Made by a program: the position numbers and the translations under genes
Shown: in pieces, positions 3,971 through 36,964 of the stretch
Layout of the letters: each line of letters opens with the position of its first letter
How positions within the stretch are numbered: position 1 is the stretch's first letter
Assembly: GCF_024436035.1 (NCBI RefSeq)
Contig: NZ_JANFNG010000011.1
Span: 1-64,000 of the forward strand
Source: Streptomyces humicola
Lineage (GTDB): Bacteria > Actinomycetota > Actinomycetes > Streptomycetales > Streptomycetaceae
Length of the DNA: 64,000 bases
Direction: 5' to 3'
The notes under the pieces: model-generated
The model's input: only the letters and a program-made list of their open reading frames with translations
What the model was told of the DNA's origin: nothing
Database searches by the model: none

Positions 3971-5232
3971 GACGATGAGCCTCCGTCGTGGGTGAGCAGG
4001 TGGAGCGGTGAGGAGTCCGATGCGATCGGCTCGTCGTCCTCCCAGGTGCGGGCGAGTGCGCCGACGGTGGTGAGGTCGCCCAGCAGGATTCCGCCGATGA
4101 GCCGGTCGTCGCGGAGCACGACCTTGCGGTAGACGCCGCGGGTGGCGTCGGAGAGCCGCAGTACGTCGTCGCCTGCGACCGGCACGGGGGTGCCGAAGGT
4201 GGCGATGTCCAGCGGGGAGTGTGCGGACGGGCCGGGGAGCGTGAGCCGGGTGAGGGCACGCGTTCCGGCGTAGCCGAGCTGCGGTGCGCTCTCCTGGCCG
4301 CCGGTGAGCAGCCGCGCCAGCAGGTCCGCCTGGTCGATAGCGGGTCCGGCGAGGCCGTAGACGACGCCCTCGTGCTCGGCGCAGTCGCCGATGGCCCGGA
4401 TGCGCGGGTCGGAGCTGCGGAGCCGGTCGTCGACGAGGACGCCGCGCTCCACGTCCAGTCCCGCGGCGTGGGCGAGCCCGACGCGCGGCCGCACTCCGCA
4501 GGCGAGGACGACGACGTCGGTGTCGAGCCGGTATCCGTCGGCGAGTTCGACGGCGCGCGCCCTGGCCGTGCCGGTCAGGCCGCGCACGCGGCATTCGAGG
4601 TGGACCTCGACGCCGAGTGCCTCCAGGTGACTGCGGACCAGTGCTGCGGCCATCGCGTCGAGGTGGTGTTCCATCAGGTGCTCGCCCTGCTGGGCCAGCA
4701 CCACCTGGGCACCGCGCGCGGCGAGCGCACGCGCCGCCGACACCCCGAGCAGGCCGCCGCCGACCACCACGGCCCGTACCCCCGGGCGGGTGGCGGCGGC
4801 GAGCGCCAGGCAGTCGTCCATGGTCCTGAAGGCGTGCACACCGTCGGGCAGCCCGCTCTCACCAGACGCCAACAGGCCGCGCAGCGGCGGCAGCACCGGG
4901 TTGGAGCCGGTGGCGAGGACGAGCGTGTCGTAGGGGACGAGCGAGCCGTCGTCGCACACGACGCGGCGCTCGTCCCGGTCGATGCGGACCGCCCGCACCC
5001 CGCGCCGCATACCGGGCGCCTCCGGCAGCGACACGACCTCCGGTGCGTACCGTCCGGCGAGCACGTCGGCGAGCAGCACCCGGTTGTAGGGGGCGTGCGC
5101 CTCCTCCCCGATCACTGTGACCTCGCAGCCGTCACCGGCGGCCCGCAGCTGGTAGGCCAGCCGGGCGCCGGCGACCCCGCCACCGATGACGGTGACGCGA
5201 TGGCGCGTGGAGGCGGAGGTTTTCGTCAGCAC
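3967..5232 (-). CDS. FAD-dependent NAD(P)H oxidoreductase of the nitrite/nitrate reductase cluster
   Basis: This pyridine nucleotide-disulfide-type oxidoreductase has 421 residues. It has an N-terminal FAD motif (VTVIGGGVAGARLAYQLRAAG), a central NAD(P)H motif (VVVGGGLLGVSAARALA) and a C-terminal FAD-closing segment (IRAIGDCAEHEG). It resembles the N-terminal reductase half of NirB but lacks BFD and siroheme domains. In actinobacteria such proteins sit beside nirB and may pass electrons to nitrate or nitrite reductase; that role is inferred from position. The chosen start is GTG at 5232, just before the FAD motif; longer in-frame extensions look non-homologous. It is the first gene of the nirBD operon. 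Confidence 0.85.
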   Translation of the reverse strand: MLTKTSASTRHRVTVIGGGVAGARLAYQLRAAGDGCEVTVIGEEAHAPYNRVLLADVLAGRYAPEVVSLPEAPGMRRGVRAVRIDRDERRVVCDDGSLVPYDTLVLATGSNPVLPPLRGLLASGESGLPDGVHAFRTMDDCLALAAATRPGVRAVVVGGGLLGVSAARALAARGAQVVLAQQGEHLMEHHLDAMAAALVRSHLEALGVEVHLECRVRGLTGTARARAVELADGYRLDTDVVVLACGVRPRVGLAHAAGLDVERGVLVDDRLRSSDPRIRAIGDCAEHEGVVYGLAGPAIDQADLLARLLTGGQESAPQLGYAGTRALTRLTLPGPSAHSPLDIATFGTPVPVAGDDVLRLSDATRGVYRKVVLRDDRLIGGILLGDLTTVGALARTWEDDEPIASDSSPLHLLTHDGGSSS

Positions 5233-29911: not shown

Positions 29912-29953
29912 CCCGGCGGCGGAGGGTTTCGCCGTGCGAGGCATGATGTGTTG

Positions 29954-30337
29954 ATGCGAACACGACCAGTTCTGGTGTACGACGGCGACTGCGGCTTCTG
30001 CACCACCTCGGTGACCTTCGCCGAGCGCCGCATACGTCCCCAGTGCGAGGTCACCGCGTGGCAGTTTGCGCAGTTGAGCGAGCTGGGGACCACGCAGCAG
30101 CGCGCGGAGCGCGAAGTGCTGTGGATCCTGCCGGACGGCACGGTGCACGGTGGTGCCCAGGCCGTCGCCCGGCTTCTGCTCAGCGCGGGCAGCGGTTGGG
30201 CCGTCCTGGGGGCGCTGCTGCGACTGCCGCCGTTGCGATGGGCGGCCGCCGGTGTCTACCGGCTCGTCGCGAACAACCGGGAGCGCATGCCCGGCGGCAC
30301 GCCTGCGTGTGCACTGCCGCGGCCCAGCGGCCGTTGA
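29954..30337 (+). CDS. DCC-type thiol-disulfide oxidoreductase family protein (DUF393)
   Basis: This 127-residue protein has the signature VLVYDGDCGFC near the N-terminus, which gives the DxxCxxC active-site pattern, followed by RIRPQCEVTAWQF and a hydrophobic segment (LGALLRLPPLRWAAAGVYRLV). The N-terminus suggests redox activity on thiols; partners are unknown. The ATG at 29954 is preceded by CATGAT at six bases; an in-frame GTG two codons earlier is an alternative. Confidence 0.85.
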   Translation: MRTRPVLVYDGDCGFCTTSVTFAERRIRPQCEVTAWQFAQLSELGTTQQRAEREVLWILPDGTVHGGAQAVARLLLSAGSGWAVLGALLRLPPLRWAAAGVYRLVANNRERMPGGTPACALPRPSGR

Positions 30338-30786: not shown

Positions 30787-31086
30787 ATGTCCCACCCCGT
30801 CCACCACGACCACCCTCACCATGCCGAGGCAGCCCGGCGGCGGGACCGCGGACTGCGGCGCGTCGGACGCACGACCCGCCGGGTTGCCCTCCTCTCCGTC
30901 GCCGGAGCCATGGCGCTCGGCGCCGGGTACGCGCACGCGCTGCCGAAGCTGCCGAACATGAGCACCGTCTGGTCGGTGTTCTCGCTCCAGAGCGACTGGC
31001 ACCCGGTGCCCCCCGCCGTCCACGCGCAGACCGCCCCCGCGCAGCACACGGCCTCCCTGTCGCCCACCGCCACGCGATCCTCATGA
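30787..31086 (+). CDS. small membrane or secreted protein, first gene of the redox operon
   Basis: This 99-residue protein starts with a histidine-rich cytoplasmic segment (SHPVHHDHPHHAEAARRRDR), then one hydrophobic helix (RRVALLSVAGAMALGAGYAHA), then a short serine/threonine/proline tail outside. GAGGAGG precedes the ATG. It has no FMN-binding domain or recognisable flavinylation motif. Its stop overlaps the ApbE start (ATGA), so it belongs to the operon. It may be a metal-sensing or anchoring component; this is speculation. Confidence 0.65.
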   Translation: MSHPVHHDHPHHAEAARRRDRGLRRVGRTTRRVALLSVAGAMALGAGYAHALPKLPNMSTVWSVFSLQSDWHPVPPAVHAQTAPAQHTASLSPTATRSS

Positions 31087-31988
31087 CCGTCACCGCACTC
31101 CCACCCGCTGCGGTCTCCTTCTCCGCGCTCGGCACCACCGCCGTGCTGCGCCTTACGGATCCGGCCGGCCTCGAAGCGGCCCGCCGCGTCCTCGAGGAGG
31201 AACTGGCCGCCATCGACGCCGTCTGCAGTCGCATCCGGCCCGACTCCGAGCTCTCGCGGGCCAACGCTGCCGCGGCCTCTGCCCGCGCGGCGGTCCACGT
31301 CAGCCCGCTCCTCGCCGAAGTGCTGGACGTGGCGCAACGCGCCGCCGAAGCCACCGGCGGCGCCGCCGACCCCACCGTTCCGGCCGCGTCCACGCCGTCC
31401 GGCTCCTCGCCCGGGTCGGCGTACGGCCGACCGGTGTGGCCGATGCGGCCCGCACGGCCCGCAACGGGCTGGCGTTCCGTGCGCTGGCACCGCGCGGCCC
31501 GCTGGCTCTGCCTGCCCGCGGGCGTGAGCCTCGACCTGGATTCGACCGCACGGGCTCTGGCCGCCGACCGCACGGCCCACCGCGCGGCTGCGGCCGCGGG
31601 CTGCGGCGTTCTGGTCACCGTCGGCGGTCACCACCGCGCGGCCGGCGAGGCGCCGCCGGGCGGCTGGCGGATCGCCGTCGCCGGTGACCCCCAGGTACGG
31701 ATCGCCGCCGGCGCCCTGGTCACCCAGGCCACCGCGGTGCCGCTCCAGCGCGGCGAGCGCAGGACACGAGGGCACGGCGACGCCGGGCCGGCGGTCTGGC
31801 GGACGGTCAGCGTCTGCGCGATGGACTGCGTCGACGCCGACACGGCCGCCACCGCCGCCGCCAGGCTCGGCGAGCGCGCGGCCGGCTGGCTGCGCCGCGT
31901 CGGCCTGCCCGCCCGGCTGACCAGGATCGATGGCACCGTCGTGCGCGTCTGCGGCTGGCCGGAGGAGGCCACGGGAGGTCTCCGATGA
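31083..31988 (+). CDS. divergent ApbE-like FAD:protein FMN transferase
   Basis: This 301-residue protein is related to ApbE, which attaches FMN to Ser/Thr of exported redox proteins. Matching parts are ALGTTAVLRLTD, IDAVCSRIRPDSELSRANAA, ATGGAADPTVP, SLDLDSTARALAADRTAHRA (family DLxxIAKGxxVD), VTVGGHHRAAGEAPPGGWRI and a late MDCVDADTAATAAA. The usual C-terminal HxxDP segment is not visible; the region reads LVTQATAVPLQRGERRTRGH. So activity is uncertain. The start overlaps the upstream stop and its stop overlaps the cytochrome gene (ATGA). Confidence 0.72.
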   Translation: MTVTALPPAAVSFSALGTTAVLRLTDPAGLEAARRVLEEELAAIDAVCSRIRPDSELSRANAAAASARAAVHVSPLLAEVLDVAQRAAEATGGAADPTVPAASTPSGSSPGSAYGRPVWPMRPARPATGWRSVRWHRAARWLCLPAGVSLDLDSTARALAADRTAHRAAAAAGCGVLVTVGGHHRAAGEAPPGGWRIAVAGDPQVRIAAGALVTQATAVPLQRGERRTRGHGDAGPAVWRTVSVCAMDCVDADTAATAAARLGERAAGWLRRVGLPARLTRIDGTVVRVCGWPEEATGGLR

Positions 31989-32650
31989 CCTCAGTGGTCC
32001 GGCTGGGAGCCGCGTCGCTGCCCGTTGCCGCCCACCGTCCGCTGTGGTTCGCCACGCGGGCGAGTGGCAGCATCACCCTGCTTCTGCTCACGGCAGCCGT
32101 TGCACTGGGCGTCCTGGTGAGCGGACGGTACGCGCCGAAACGGTTCACCCGCTTCGAGATCAGCGCGCTGCACCGCAACGTCTCGGTGCTCAGCCTCGCC
32201 TTCCTGGCGGTGCACATCGTGACGACGGTCGTCGATCCGCTCGTCCCCGTCGGCTGGGTGCCGGCGCTGGTGCCGTTCATCTCCGCCTACCGGGCGCCGT
32301 GGCTGGGCCTGGCCACCCTCGCCTCCGACCTGATGCTCGCCGTCGCGATCACCAGCGCCGTACGGCTGCGGATGGGCCGCCGTCCGTGGAAGGCGGTGCA
32401 CTGGCTGGCCTACGCGGCCTGGCCGGTCGCGCTCTTCCACGCGGCGGCGGGCACCGACACCCATCTCGACCTGCAGCGCGGGCTGTACGCGGCGTGCGTC
32501 GCCGCGGTGCTCGCCGCGGTGTGGTGGCGGCTGTACCGGGCCGGTCCCGGCATGCTTGCCGGCCGCCTGTCGGCGGGCGTCGTCGCCGCGTTGGTCCCGG
32601 CCGCGCTCGGGGCCTTCCTCGCCTCCGGACCGCAGGGGGTCTTCCTGTGA
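31985..32650 (+). CDS. cytochrome b-like ferric reductase transmembrane protein
   Basis: This 221-residue integral membrane protein has about six helices and resembles the ferric reductase-like transmembrane family. Candidate heme ligands are the histidines in LHRNVSVLSLAFLAVHIV and in AVHWLAYAAWPVALFHAAAG, two per helix pair as expected. It would carry electrons across the membrane between the cytoplasmic NuoF-like protein/ferredoxin and an outer acceptor. Four-base overlaps join it to ApbE upstream and to the NuoF-like gene (GTGA) downstream. Confidence 0.82.
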   Translation: MTSVVRLGAASLPVAAHRPLWFATRASGSITLLLLTAAVALGVLVSGRYAPKRFTRFEISALHRNVSVLSLAFLAVHIVTTVVDPLVPVGWVPALVPFISAYRAPWLGLATLASDLMLAVAITSAVRLRMGRRPWKAVHWLAYAAWPVALFHAAAGTDTHLDLQRGLYAACVAAVLAAVWWRLYRAGPGMLAGRLSAGVVAALVPAALGAFLASGPQGVFL

Positions 32651-34002
32651 CCGAGACGCAATCATCTTCTCCGCCTTCCGCGGCCTGCGTGCTGGACGGC
32701 CCGACGGGCCCGTACGGCTCCCGCCTGCTGTACGGCTGGCTTCGCACCGGCAGCCCCGCCGACCTCGACGAACACCTCGACCGGTACGGCCCGCCGCCGC
32801 TGCCGCGCACCGCGCGCCGCCCGACGGCCGGACCGCTGGTACGGGCCGTGGAGGAGGCGGGACTCACCGGCCGCGGTGGCGCCGCTTTCCCCACGGGCCG
32901 CAAGCTGCGCACCGTCGCCGAGACCCCCGGCCCGGCTGTCGTCATCGCCAACGGCATGGAGAGCGAACCGGTCAGCCGCAAGGACAAGATCCTGCTCAGC
33001 CTCGCCCCGCACCTGGTGCTGGACGGCGCGTCGCTCGCGGCCGCCGCGGTTGGCGCCGAAGCCGTCCACCTGTGCCTGCCGCGCACCCGGGCCGGGCTGG
33101 TCCGGCATCTGGCCGGTGCCGTTGACGAGCGGCGGCTGCGCGGCATCGACCGGGTGCCCATCCACGTCCATGGGCTGCCCCACCGCTACGTCTCCAGCGA
33201 GGCGACGTCGCTGGTGCGGTGGGTGAACGGCGGAGACGCCCGTCCCGCATCGACACCGCCGCGCCCCTTCGAACAGGGTGTGGGCGGGCTCCCGACGCTG
33301 GTCGACAACGTCGAGACCCTCGCCCATCTGGCGCTGATCGCCCGGTACGGCGCCGACTGGTTCCGTACCGCGGGACGTCCCGGCGCGCCCGGTACGACGC
33401 TGGTCACGCTCGCCGGCGCGGTCCGCGCGCCCGGTGTCTACGAGACGCCGATGGGCACCCCGATCGGCGAGCTCGTGGACCGTGCCGAGGGCCCCAGCGA
33501 GGAGATCGGCGCGCTGCTGCTCGGCGGCTTCTTCGGCAGCTGGGTTCCGGCGGAGACGGCGATGGGGCTGTCCTTCGCCAAGAACGACCTCGCGGCCGTC
33601 GGCGCGGGTCCGGGGGCCGGGGTGATCGCGGCGCTGCCGCGGCGCGCCTGCGGCCTCGCCGAGACCGCCCGCGTGCTGGCGTACCTCGCGGCGCACAGCG
33701 CCAGGCAGTGCGGCCCGTGCACGATGGGACTGCCCACGGTCGCCGAGGACTTCGCCGCGGTGGCACGGGGCGACGCCGACACCCGCCTGCTCGACCGGCT
33801 CGCCGGCAGGATCGGCCTGCTGTCCGGGCGCGGCGCCTGCCGCCACCCGGACGGGGCGTCGCGGCTCGCCGCCACGGCGCTGCGGGTCTTTGCCGACGAC
33901 CTGCGCCAGCACATCCGGCGGGGGCCGTGTGCGGCTGCCTCGCGCAAACCGGTGCTGTCCGTGCCCGATCCCGCGGCGGCCGATGCACAGGGATGGCGGT
34001 GA
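32647..34002 (+). CDS. NuoF-like NADH-dehydrogenase flavoprotein
   Basis: This 451-residue protein is homologous to the 51-kDa NuoF/HoxF flavoprotein. It has the FMN/NADH site GLTGRGGAAFPTGRK, NGMESEPVSRKDK, GLPTLVDNVETLAHLALI, an SLBB-like segment (TTLVTLAGAVRAPGVYETP), and a C-terminal iron-sulfur region SARQCGPCTMGLP...GRGACRHPDG. The third cysteine of the usual CxxCxxC cluster is replaced by glycine. The start is GTG overlapping the previous stop. It probably oxidises NADH and feeds the cytochrome b and ferredoxin of this operon. Confidence 0.85.
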   Translation: MTETQSSSPPSAACVLDGPTGPYGSRLLYGWLRTGSPADLDEHLDRYGPPPLPRTARRPTAGPLVRAVEEAGLTGRGGAAFPTGRKLRTVAETPGPAVVIANGMESEPVSRKDKILLSLAPHLVLDGASLAAAAVGAEAVHLCLPRTRAGLVRHLAGAVDERRLRGIDRVPIHVHGLPHRYVSSEATSLVRWVNGGDARPASTPPRPFEQGVGGLPTLVDNVETLAHLALIARYGADWFRTAGRPGAPGTTLVTLAGAVRAPGVYETPMGTPIGELVDRAEGPSEEIGALLLGGFFGSWVPAETAMGLSFAKNDLAAVGAGPGAGVIAALPRRACGLAETARVLAYLAAHSARQCGPCTMGLPTVAEDFAAVARGDADTRLLDRLAGRIGLLSGRGACRHPDGASRLAATALRVFADDLRQHIRRGPCAAASRKPVLSVPDPAAADAQGWR

Positions 34003-34238
34003 ACGGCATGTCCGATGCACAGACCGCGTCCGGTGTGCACACCCTGCTGATCGACCGCATTGCGTGCGACGGCCACGGCGCCTGCGCCGAGCTGCTCCCC
34101 GAACTCATCGGGCTCGACGAGTGGGGCTATCCCATCGTCAGGTCCACCGACGTTCCCGGAGAGCTGCTCGATCATGCGCGGCGCGCCGTCGCCGAGTGCC
34201 CTGTGCTGGCGCTCCGCGTCGAGCAGAAGCACCGCTAG
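33993..34238 (+). CDS. ferredoxin ([3Fe-4S] type)
   Basis: This 81-residue ferredoxin has cysteines at 25, 31 and 69 (IACDGHGAC and AECP). The middle ligand position is histidine, which gives the CxxHxxC...CP pattern of [3Fe-4S] ferredoxins. It overlaps the NuoF-like gene by ten bases and closes the five-gene operon. A second start (ATG at 34008) is possible. It is likely the electron partner of the NuoF-like protein or cytochrome. Confidence 0.85.
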   Translation: MAVNGMSDAQTASGVHTLLIDRIACDGHGACAELLPELIGLDEWGYPIVRSTDVPGELLDHARRAVAECPVLALRVEQKHR

Positions 34239-34248
34239 GCGCCTGGCG

Positions 34249-36741
34249 TCAGGCGACGGCCACGCCGCTCGGCTCGCTCGACAGGCCCAGCGGCGCACTG
34301 CCCACCACCTGCAGCGTCTTGACGTCGATCGCATCCACCGTGCTCGCCGCGTTCGCCGACACCCACACGGTGTCGTCGGTTGCGGTGATCCCGGTCGGCA
34401 CGTGGTGCACCCGCACCCGGGCGACGACGGTGCCGCTCGCGGCGTCGACCACCGTGACGGTGTCGTCCCCCGCACTGGTGACGTAGACGCGTGCACCGTC
34501 CGGGGCGACCGCGACCTGCCAGGGCCTCCTGCCCACGGGGATCCGCGCGACGACGAGGTGGTCGCGCGTGTCGATCACCGACAGCGTTTCCTCCCAGGCG
34601 TTGGCGACGTACACGCGGGTGCCGTCCGGGTGCACGGCGACGCCGTTGGAACGCGCCTGGCCGATCAGGAGCCGGCGCTGTTCGCCGTCGCCGGTGTCCA
34701 CCACCGACAGTCCGTCGAAGCAGGTGACGTACAGCGTTCCGCCGTCGGGGCTCGGCGCGACGGAGTGCGGCGCGAGACCCGTCTGCCACGTGGCGCACAC
34801 CTTGTCACAGCCGGTCTCGATCACCGAGACGGTCTGCGAGCCGCCGGGGCCGGTGTCCGGGCCGGTGTTGGCGACGTAGACGTGGCGGCCGTCCGGCGAG
34901 GACGCCACACCGTGCGGGAGGAGACCCACGGTGACACTCGAGACGATCCTGCCCTGCGTGGTGTCGTACACCGAAACGTCGCTCGCTCCGGAGTTGCTGA
35001 TGTACAGCTTGTGGCCGCCGGCGGGCGCGGTGATGCCGTAGGGGTTGGTCCCGGCGTCGATGCTCGCCACCAGCCGGTGGGTCGATGTGTCGACCACGGC
35101 GATCGAGTAGCTGACCATGCCGGCCGCGTAGGTGTGCACGCCGCTGGTCGGGCCGGTCTTGGGCACGGAGTCCTGCGTGCCGGGGAAGTTGGTGCCCGCG
35201 GTGCCGTCCGGGAAGTCACCGCTGTGCGAGGTGGCATTCTCCACGGAACGGCTCGTGGAGTACCGCCGCGCACCGCTCAGTTCGCCCGTCCCGCCCGGCG
35301 CGGAGCTCGCGGACGGCACCGCTTGAAGACCCGGGCCGGTCTCCTGGTGCGGGGGCCTCTGGTCGGCGCCGGGGACGGGCGGCGGCGGCAGGGTGGCCAC
35401 CTCGTGCTCGGCGGTCCACAACTGCCGCTTGGTCGGTGGCAGCGCCGGGAACGGCCGGGTGTGCGGGAATCCGAGCGCCGAGGTGAGGTCGCCGAACGTC
35501 TGCCGCCGCCAGTCGCTGATGTTCGGCTCGCGCACGCCGGTGATCTGCTCCAGGAAGCGCAGCACGGAGGTGTGGTCGAAGGGCTCGCTCGACACGTAAC
35601 CGCCTTGCGTCCACGGCGAGACGATGATGCACGGCACGCGGATGCCCGCGCCGATCGGCAGCCCCTGGACGAACTCGTCTGCTGTCCCCTCGGGCGGCGT
35701 CGGCGGGACGACGTGGTCGAACAGGCCGTCGTTCTCGTCGTAGTTGACGATGAACACGGTCTTGCGCCACACGTCGGGGTTGGCGGCCACCGCATCCAGC
35801 TGTCGGGCGAGGAAGTCGGCGCCGGACGCCGGGAGGTAGTCGGGATGCTCCGACTGCGGTGACGTCGGGATGATCCATGAGACGGTCGGCAGCCGGTCGT
35901 GGAGCGCGTCGCGCGCGAACTGGTCGGCCGGGCCGATGGTCAGCCCGTGCTCGTAGAGCGGGTCGCCCGGCTCGGCGTCCTGGTAGGCCTTGAAGAACTC
36001 CAGCGGATTGCAGCCGTAGTCGTCCTCCTCCTGGTAGACGTGCCAGGAGATGCCGGCCTCGGTCAGCCGCTCGGGATAGGTGGTCCAGCGGAACGGCTGC
36101 GGGATCACGTTGCTGATGACCGGTCCGCCGTGCGCGCCACCGGGGTCGATGGTGCCGCTCCAGTGGTAGAGGCGGTTGGGCCAGGTCGGGCCGAGGACGG
36201 AGCTGTGGTAGGCGTCGCAGAGGGTGAAGGACTCGGCGAGCGCGAAGTGGAAGGGGATGTCGGCCCGCTCGTAATAGCCCATGGTGTAGGGGCCGTTGGC
36301 GTTGCCGTCGGCGGCGCGGTGGGCCGGGACCCAGTTGTCCATCGCGCCGCCGTTCCACGCCTGGTGCTGCGTCGTCCACGCGTGGCTGGTCGACGGGATC
36401 GCCTGTGCGCTCGTGCTCCTGGTGTCCAGGTGGAACGGGAGCAGATAGCCGTCGGGGTTGTCCGGATCCGGCTGGTAGAAGATCGAGCGCCCGTTCGGCA
36501 GCGTGGCGGCATCCGGGTCGTCGAATCCGCGCACTCCGCGCAGCGTGCCGAAGTAGTGGTCGAACGACCGGTTCTCCAGCATCAGGATGACGACGTGCTC
36601 GATCTCCTCCAGCGAGCCGGGACGACGGACCGGGTCGGCCATGACGCGCTGCAGATTCGGCGGGAGCACGGATGCCGCGGCGGCGAGACCGCTGATGCCC
36701 AGTGCTGACCTGAGTAGCCGTCGACGGGAGACGCCTGCCAT
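34249..36741 (-). CDS. Tat-exported phosphoesterase fused to a YVTN beta-propeller
   Basis: This 830-residue protein has a twin-arginine signal (SRRRLLRSALGISGLAAAAS, about residues 5-24). A phosphoesterase domain of the phospholipase C/acid phosphatase family follows (VVILMLENRSFDHYFGTLRG, VNYDENDGLFDHVVPP, FDHTSVLRFLEQITG) to about residue 470. After a linker, the C-terminal ~300 residues form a YncE-like propeller with repeated YVTN/YVAN blades (VYVANAWEETLSVIDTRDH, LYVTCFDGLSVVDTGDGEQ). The start ATG has GAGGTGG upstream. It is convergent with the redox operon. Substrates are probably exported phospholipids or organic phosphate. Confidence 0.87.
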   Translation of the reverse strand: MAGVSRRRLLRSALGISGLAAAASVLPPNLQRVMADPVRRPGSLEEIEHVVILMLENRSFDHYFGTLRGVRGFDDPDAATLPNGRSIFYQPDPDNPDGYLLPFHLDTRSTSAQAIPSTSHAWTTQHQAWNGGAMDNWVPAHRAADGNANGPYTMGYYERADIPFHFALAESFTLCDAYHSSVLGPTWPNRLYHWSGTIDPGGAHGGPVISNVIPQPFRWTTYPERLTEAGISWHVYQEEDDYGCNPLEFFKAYQDAEPGDPLYEHGLTIGPADQFARDALHDRLPTVSWIIPTSPQSEHPDYLPASGADFLARQLDAVAANPDVWRKTVFIVNYDENDGLFDHVVPPTPPEGTADEFVQGLPIGAGIRVPCIIVSPWTQGGYVSSEPFDHTSVLRFLEQITGVREPNISDWRRQTFGDLTSALGFPHTRPFPALPPTKRQLWTAEHEVATLPPPPVPGADQRPPHQETGPGLQAVPSASSAPGGTGELSGARRYSTSRSVENATSHSGDFPDGTAGTNFPGTQDSVPKTGPTSGVHTYAAGMVSYSIAVVDTSTHRLVASIDAGTNPYGITAPAGGHKLYISNSGASDVSVYDTTQGRIVSSVTVGLLPHGVASSPDGRHVYVANTGPDTGPGGSQTVSVIETGCDKVCATWQTGLAPHSVAPSPDGGTLYVTCFDGLSVVDTGDGEQRRLLIGQARSNGVAVHPDGTRVYVANAWEETLSVIDTRDHLVVARIPVGRRPWQVAVAPDGARVYVTSAGDDTVTVVDAASGTVVARVRVHHVPTGITATDDTVWVSANAASTVDAIDVKTLQVVGSAPLGLSSEPSGVAVA

Positions 36742-36964
36742 GACCACCTCGCTGCCGGAGACCGGGGACCTGTTCACCACACACCAGTGCGCCGTGCGAC
36801 ACAAGGGACAGGCGGTGAACCCCCCTCAACTTCGCATTGACCGGGCTGCGGGACACCGGCGCATCTCGGCCATTCGGGTGATCGGCCGGACTCGCCGGGG
36901 CATGTGTGAGGTGCCCGTCAGCGGGCAGGTACGACGGCGACCGACAACGAACGGGGTGAGGTAC

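Follow-up and report, generated by a model that had tools for sequence, protein, structure and literature searches.

Gene clusters that join an MsrQ-like cytochrome to a flavinylation system and a NuoF-like gene have been described before; Meheust et al. 2021 (PMC8238504) give 31 of them. Flavinylation of this kind is carried out by ApbE, which moves flavin mononucleotide (FMN) from flavin adenine dinucleotide to the last Ser/Thr of a short motif. According to PMC12052999, the motif can do without its Asp, Thr is a better acceptor than Ser, a tag of seven residues performs best when placed at the N or C terminus of a protein, and leaderless cytosolic ApbEs exist. Here we analyse a same-strand operon of five genes (30787-34238, + strand) in a 64,000-nucleotide stretch of the Streptomyces humicola genome, hereafter the window. 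The operon encodes, in order, a small protein, an ApbE family protein, a cytochrome b, a NuoF-like protein and a ferredoxin. Like the clusters described in PMC8238504, it has a PF01794 cytochrome, here with four haem His residues, an ApbE, and a NuoF-like protein with a PF10589 domain (47.7 bits against a cut-off of 23.5); unlike them, it has no FMN_bind gene, and none of its proteins carries the canonical flavinylation motif, and its ApbE is degenerate. It is a reduced member of the published MsrQ-like/NuoF-like kind. We propose, with a probability of roughly 0.7, that in its relatives the operon would form a transmembrane electron line ending at FMN on the tail of the small protein, and that the flavin part would have been lost in the lineage of the window.

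A conserved C-terminal tail in the small protein

The relatives were collected in two ways. One scan of public contigs with a single cytochrome b query returned ten loci from named genomes, of which Streptomyces/Actinacidiphila account for eight and Acidimicrobiaceae metagenome assemblies for two; all ten have intact ApbEs, and the small proteins of the eight former have TSGAS, NSGAS or TTGGS at their C termini. Genome searches gave matches in 45/394 family, 43/396 phylum and 20/197 order genomes, these sets being overlapping samples of larger groups. Loci were retrieved for the best matches and for 20 further family stretches, the weaker phylum and order matches being covered in part. Keeping cytochrome b matches accompanied by a NuoF open reading frame of at least 330 residues, and removing nine duplicates, left 88 non-redundant loci, the window included. 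That the gene set recurs in relatives argues that the operon is not a chance arrangement. The small reading frame upstream was chosen by a rule in which the tail played no part, namely overlap with the apbE start or, failing that, greatest length. For 11 loci, in which the rule took the wrong frame or apbE was not adjacent, the tail was entered by hand, and three loci have no assigned tail (L022, L071 (contig edge) and L064 (truncated cytochrome); L and G numbers are our own labels for loci and genomes).

In 69 of the 88 loci the small protein terminates in [ST]G[AGS]S, six of these tails (L097, L098, L099, L104, L112, L113) being hand-entered. The 63 that were read directly by script comprise 34 GAS, 26 GGS and 3 GSS endings. 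An Asp stands at the canonical place in nine tails, and six carry the full D-x-x-[ST]-G-A-[ST]; a six-frame search for that complete motif in ten relatives' loci of 8-12.6 kb found none. No control C terminus from the same operons matched the tail (ApbE 0/78, cytochrome b 0/88, NuoF 0/79; 0/245 in total). The linkers preceding the tail differ in composition between lineages, being rich in Pro, Ser or Gly, and the last residues are nonetheless constant.

We considered whether such an ending could be a by-product of translational coupling, that is, a ribosome-binding sequence and an overlapping start codon that happen to be read as SGAS. In 53 of the 63 script-read cases the small gene does share 4 bases with the start of apbE, and a GGAG, GAGG, AGGA or AAGG core is present in 11. 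However, the motif is kept in the 10 that lack the usual overlap, and all four Gly codons are in use (GGT 26, GGG 15, GGC 15, GGA 7), and because the tail persists without the overlap and uses every Gly codon, a ribosome-binding-site artefact is very improbable. Moreover, five operon copies without an adjacent apbE, in genomes G785, G786 and G788, still end in TSGGS, whereas none of the other overlapping operon genes has such an ending; these three genomes carry high-scoring ApbEs of the operon type elsewhere.

The architecture of the small proteins fits export or membrane anchoring. Among 64 proteins, RR precedes the hydrophobic segment in 52, an [AVST]-x-A site lies near the end of that segment in 47, and the distance from the segment to the C terminus has a median of 85 residues (range 43-134; 51 in the window). 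The small proteins consist of a hydrophobic segment followed by a low-complexity linker, and the two that were compared with Pfam, from the window and L010, contain no domain. The window protein (99 residues, 30787..31086, + strand) has an Arg-rich N terminus, one hydrophobic segment (30883..30930) that may be a signal peptide or a membrane anchor and that precedes AHALP, and a short linker. It falls in no NCBIfam family, and its sole Pfam match is below cut-off and spurious. Its position, together with the (R)RRxRGxRRV..TTR, hydrophobic segment and YAxALP that it has in common with the relatives' tailed proteins, marks it as their counterpart. Its last six codons (31066..31083), however, encode TATRSS, where close relatives have tails of the HTTSGAS type, and the SPTATRSS ending contains no D-x-x-[ST]-G-A-[ST] motif.

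Lesions in ApbE and the sister locus

The ApbE of the window (301 residues, 31083..31988, + strand; PF02424, 103.7 bits) is predicted to keep its fold: the modelled structure has a mean predicted local distance difference test score (pLDDT) of 82.9, falling below 50 at residues 106-122 and 219-233, and its best PDB match is an ApbE (5mgy, template modelling score 0.75). Its conserved residues are another matter. Among 77 non-redundant ApbEs the window alone departs from the Ser at the place of Vibrio cholerae Ser241 (Gln instead), from the Lys of LDLGATAK (Arg) and from the Asp of GGD (His, giving Gly-Gly-His at residues 181-183, 31623..31631), each of these being kept in the 76 others. Over residues 210-232 (31710..31778) ATSG has become VTQA and HHIVDPATG has been cut to GHG; that is, the catalytic His present in 77/77 is retained, and the D (68/77) and P (75/77) that follow it are deleted. 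The catalytic triad (V. cholerae Ser241, His257 and Asp285) was located through its 16- and 28-residue spacing and an alignment to the E. coli and Thermotoga ApbEs. The window has Gln/His/Asp there, an incomplete triad, and the other 76 have Ser/His/Asn, which indicates that the triad Asp has been replaced throughout the group. Pairwise ratios of nonsynonymous to synonymous substitution (dN/dS; NG86, uncorrected for GC content) were 0.45 and 0.50 in two comparisons involving the window ApbE and 0.22-0.34 in four among intact relatives. From these replacements and deletions, the window ApbE is probably inactive.

Such an enzyme might nevertheless act on a partner encoded elsewhere, as the preliminary description had envisaged. 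That description had seen no FMN-binding or flavinylation motif in the operon, and our Pfam scan and reading by eye likewise find no FMN_bind domain and no D-x-x-[ST]-G-A-[ST] motif in the five proteins. The retained fold and His and the open frame would be compatible with activity. In the S. humicola genome (7.07 Mb, 78 contigs) a search for FMN_bind proteins did yield one (C22:300286-300507, carrying DAVSGAS), but it lies between an FNR-type membrane reductase and an ApbE of its own, with an intact AHILDPRTG stretch (C22:299448-302167), and with its own ApbE and reductase it therefore belongs to a separate system. The same pairing of FMN_bind protein and ApbE recurs in other genomes, e.g. 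G034, G013 and G208. As the single genomic copy is paired in this way, it was rejected as the acceptor of the operon, and the distant partner finds no support. Given also the loss of positions kept in 76/77 ApbEs, activity of the window ApbE on a partner elsewhere appears improbable, with the search for partners having covered FMN_bind proteins.

In a tree of NuoF and cytochrome b the window, on a long branch, pairs with L049, a locus of genome G034, at a local support of 0.994. At L049, what stands for apbE between the genes of the small protein and the cytochrome is a stub of 27 codons, and the small protein ends in SHSAYRAS; the only other ApbE of G034 adjoins its FMN_bind gene. This clade has probably dropped flavinylation and kept the NADH (reduced nicotinamide adenine dinucleotide)-to-haem part, and its two known members appear to have decayed by different routes. 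Both tails contain an Arg, perhaps a shared one. Intermediate steps of decay were sought in the genera of G034 (3 genomes) and G016 (2 genomes), which added nothing new, and the only other genome of the window's genus has neither ApbE nor cytochrome matches.

Several observations speak against a tail flavin lost in the window. The link between tail and ApbE across loci is strong, not absolute: the 19 loci without the tail include, besides the three with none assigned, the window (TRSS) and L049 (YRAS), L081/L082 (SRGS) and also L023 (SKAS), L116 (SKHG), L076/L077 (SSGS) and L095 (SNAS), and in these last five cases the ApbE beside the divergent tail is apparently intact. The same holds for L034, where the small gene runs out of frame near a G run just before the tail, through mutation or an assembly error. 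Six further loci (L014, L015, L067-L070), forming one clade that includes Acidimicrobiaceae, combine an apparently intact ApbE with a C-x-x-x-P-S-G-x-x-x-C-x tail (in L014 and L015 the small-protein stop is at 5071). Furthermore, Arg-type tails (TRSS, SRSS, SRGS, TRTS) stand beside apparently intact ApbEs at the distant loci L086, L087, L089 and L090, in which no NuoF was detected. In a split variant from one other genus (G430 and G744) apbE is missing from the group formed by the small gene (ending TVSRGS), the cytochrome and NuoF; both genomes encode a single ApbE at another site, followed in G430 by a ferredoxin of the operon type, and no FMN_bind protein was found in either genome. Since Arg tails thus occur beside apparently intact ApbEs, the tail of the window alone is no proof of loss. 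As to the enzyme, the window ApbE retains His and has Asp at two positions of the triad, it is the only one of the 77 with Asp at the Asp285 place, and its open frame and dN/dS of 0.45-0.50 are unlike those of a fully free pseudogene. The loss is seen in one clade and hence counts as one event. Finally, no signal peptide is evident in the ApbEs of this group, yet the tail is expected outside the cell.

The proposed electron line and its retained part

In the relatives, electrons would pass from NADH to the NuoF-like flavin and iron-sulphur protein, then to the ferredoxin and on to a two-haem cytochrome b. The operon ApbE would attach FMN to the last residue of the small protein, which would serve as a disordered tether, exported or anchored in the membrane, with [ST]G[AGS]S at its end, and the tail flavin would hand the electrons to an extracellular acceptor. 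Because ApbE modifies the last Ser/Thr of its motif, the Asp is dispensable and terminal tags work best, a C-terminal [ST]GAS is a plausible natural flavin tag, which makes the small protein the likely acceptor in the relatives. As the ApbEs are leaderless, the tail would be loaded in the cytosol and exported afterwards with its flavin, and the Arg-rich N termini leave room for a route resembling twin-arginine translocation (Tat). In the lineage of the window, the tail has changed to TATRSS and the ApbE, its predicted fold kept, has lost conserved active-site residues, so that the final flavin step is probably missing. The remaining NADH-to-haem part may pass electrons straight to a soluble acceptor, or may be slowly decaying; reduction of iron or flavin by the operon is possible.

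The preliminary description had already recognized the five overlapping genes and a route from NADH to the membrane. The overlaps are of 4 bases each, the last one only if the ferredoxin starts at the GTG at 33999. The direction from NADH through the NuoF-like protein and the ferredoxin to the cytochrome b is reasonable, the order of the carriers being inferred. That description had also named two outcomes that would tell against its own proposal, an acceptor role of the small first protein or an inactive ApbE, and both now seem to apply, given the likely acceptor motif in the relatives' small protein and the loss in the window of ApbE residues kept in 76 others.

The MsrQ/ferric-reductase-like cytochrome b (31985..32650, + strand) matches PF01794 just above the cut-off (28.9 bits against 28), and its His residues at 63, 77, 139 and 152 are conserved in 87-88 of the 88 loci; the predicted structure has six long helices at low confidence (mean pLDDT 54.9), and the model was left unused. 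The NuoF-like protein (32647..34002, + strand) has PF01512, PF10589 and SLBB domains. Like NuoF/Nqo1 of complex I, it has FMN/NADH-binding and 4Fe-4S domains, which align with Thermus Nqo1 (2fug), but its score of 186.9 is far under the 558.65 set as cut-off for the NuoF equivalog, and it keeps three of the four cysteines of the N3 cluster. Ala or Ser replaces the first cysteine of the clustered N3 trio in 88/88 NuoF-like proteins, and a non-standard ligand of the Fe-S cluster is possible. Most of these proteins have a conserved His-Pro-Asp after the last Cys, and many end in -WR (seen among 25). The ferredoxin (from the GTG at 33999 or the ATG at 34008 to 34238, + strand) is a single-cluster Fer4_15 protein with three cysteines, suggestive of a [3Fe-4S] cluster; among PDB sequences it matches a 'putative ferredoxin' (4id8) best.

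A DCC1-like thiol-disulfide oxidoreductase (29948-30337, +) and a phosphoesterase fused to a YncE-like propeller (34249-36804, -) flank the operon. In some relatives the neighbourhood is richer. Loci L006-L010 have a His-containing membrane protein downstream of the operon, at about 8.1-9.2 kb (3.8-4.7 kb in L008); the L010 copy has no Pfam match, and homologues were found in 10 of 20 genomes tested, that of the window not among them. Two-component regulator and/or kinase genes lie near the operon, upstream, in L007, L009, L010, L012, L013 and L124; a crude gene listing revealed none near the operon of the window.

The absence of these two-component genes and of the membrane protein from the window locus, the latter also from the genome, could mean that the whole operon is functionless and decaying and not streamlined. 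The long branch in the tree would agree with this, as would the raised dN/dS of the cytochrome b, 0.39-0.43 in comparisons with the window as against 0.17-0.29 in three of four among intact relatives (0.40 in the fourth). However, these ratios are well under 1, all frames are open, and the operon retains the four haem His residues, the motifs and three cysteines of the NuoF-like protein and the cysteines of the ferredoxin. General decay is therefore rather unlikely, and a flavin step lost from a retained NADH-to-haem line is the reading that we prefer.

A tail without a folded domain as a proposed ApbE substrate

We consider it slightly better than an even bet that actinobacteria possess a class of ApbE substrates without a folded flavin domain, in which a disordered exported tail would carry FMN on its last residue and shuttle electrons while tethered or after release. 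The clade of the window would be a case in which the flavin was shed. Such tails would share with the FMN_bind, DUF2271, DUF3570, Flavodoxin_4 and FMN_red substrates a location outside or at the membrane and an [ST]GA[ST] motif; in the parts of PMC8238504 and PMC11334425 drawn on here, however, those motifs lie in or on folded domains, whereas the small proteins of the window and L010 match no Pfam domain. The resemblance to ApbE flavin-tagging is closer, as a short terminal D-x-x-[ST]-G-A-[ST] tag suffices there for FMN attachment. The tag described in PMC12052999 is engineered, whereas that of the relatives would be native, mostly without Asp, and with Ser as both acceptor and last residue. 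The available part of PMC8238504 leaves 'less prevalent ApbE substrates' unidentified and has no mention of a small C-terminally tailed protein, and a tail-only class was not found in the literature searched, for which parts of PMC8238504, PMC11334425 and PMC12052999 served.

Flavinylation surveys list apbE genes without a known substrate, and searches based on domains would miss a substrate that is only a tail. If our proposal is true, the tail would be, to our knowledge, the smallest natural ApbE substrate, and its recognition would supply the orphan ApbE/cytochrome operons of actinobacteria with acceptors. A clade that has lost the flavin and retains the NADH-to-haem line would then be a natural control for the role of the flavin.

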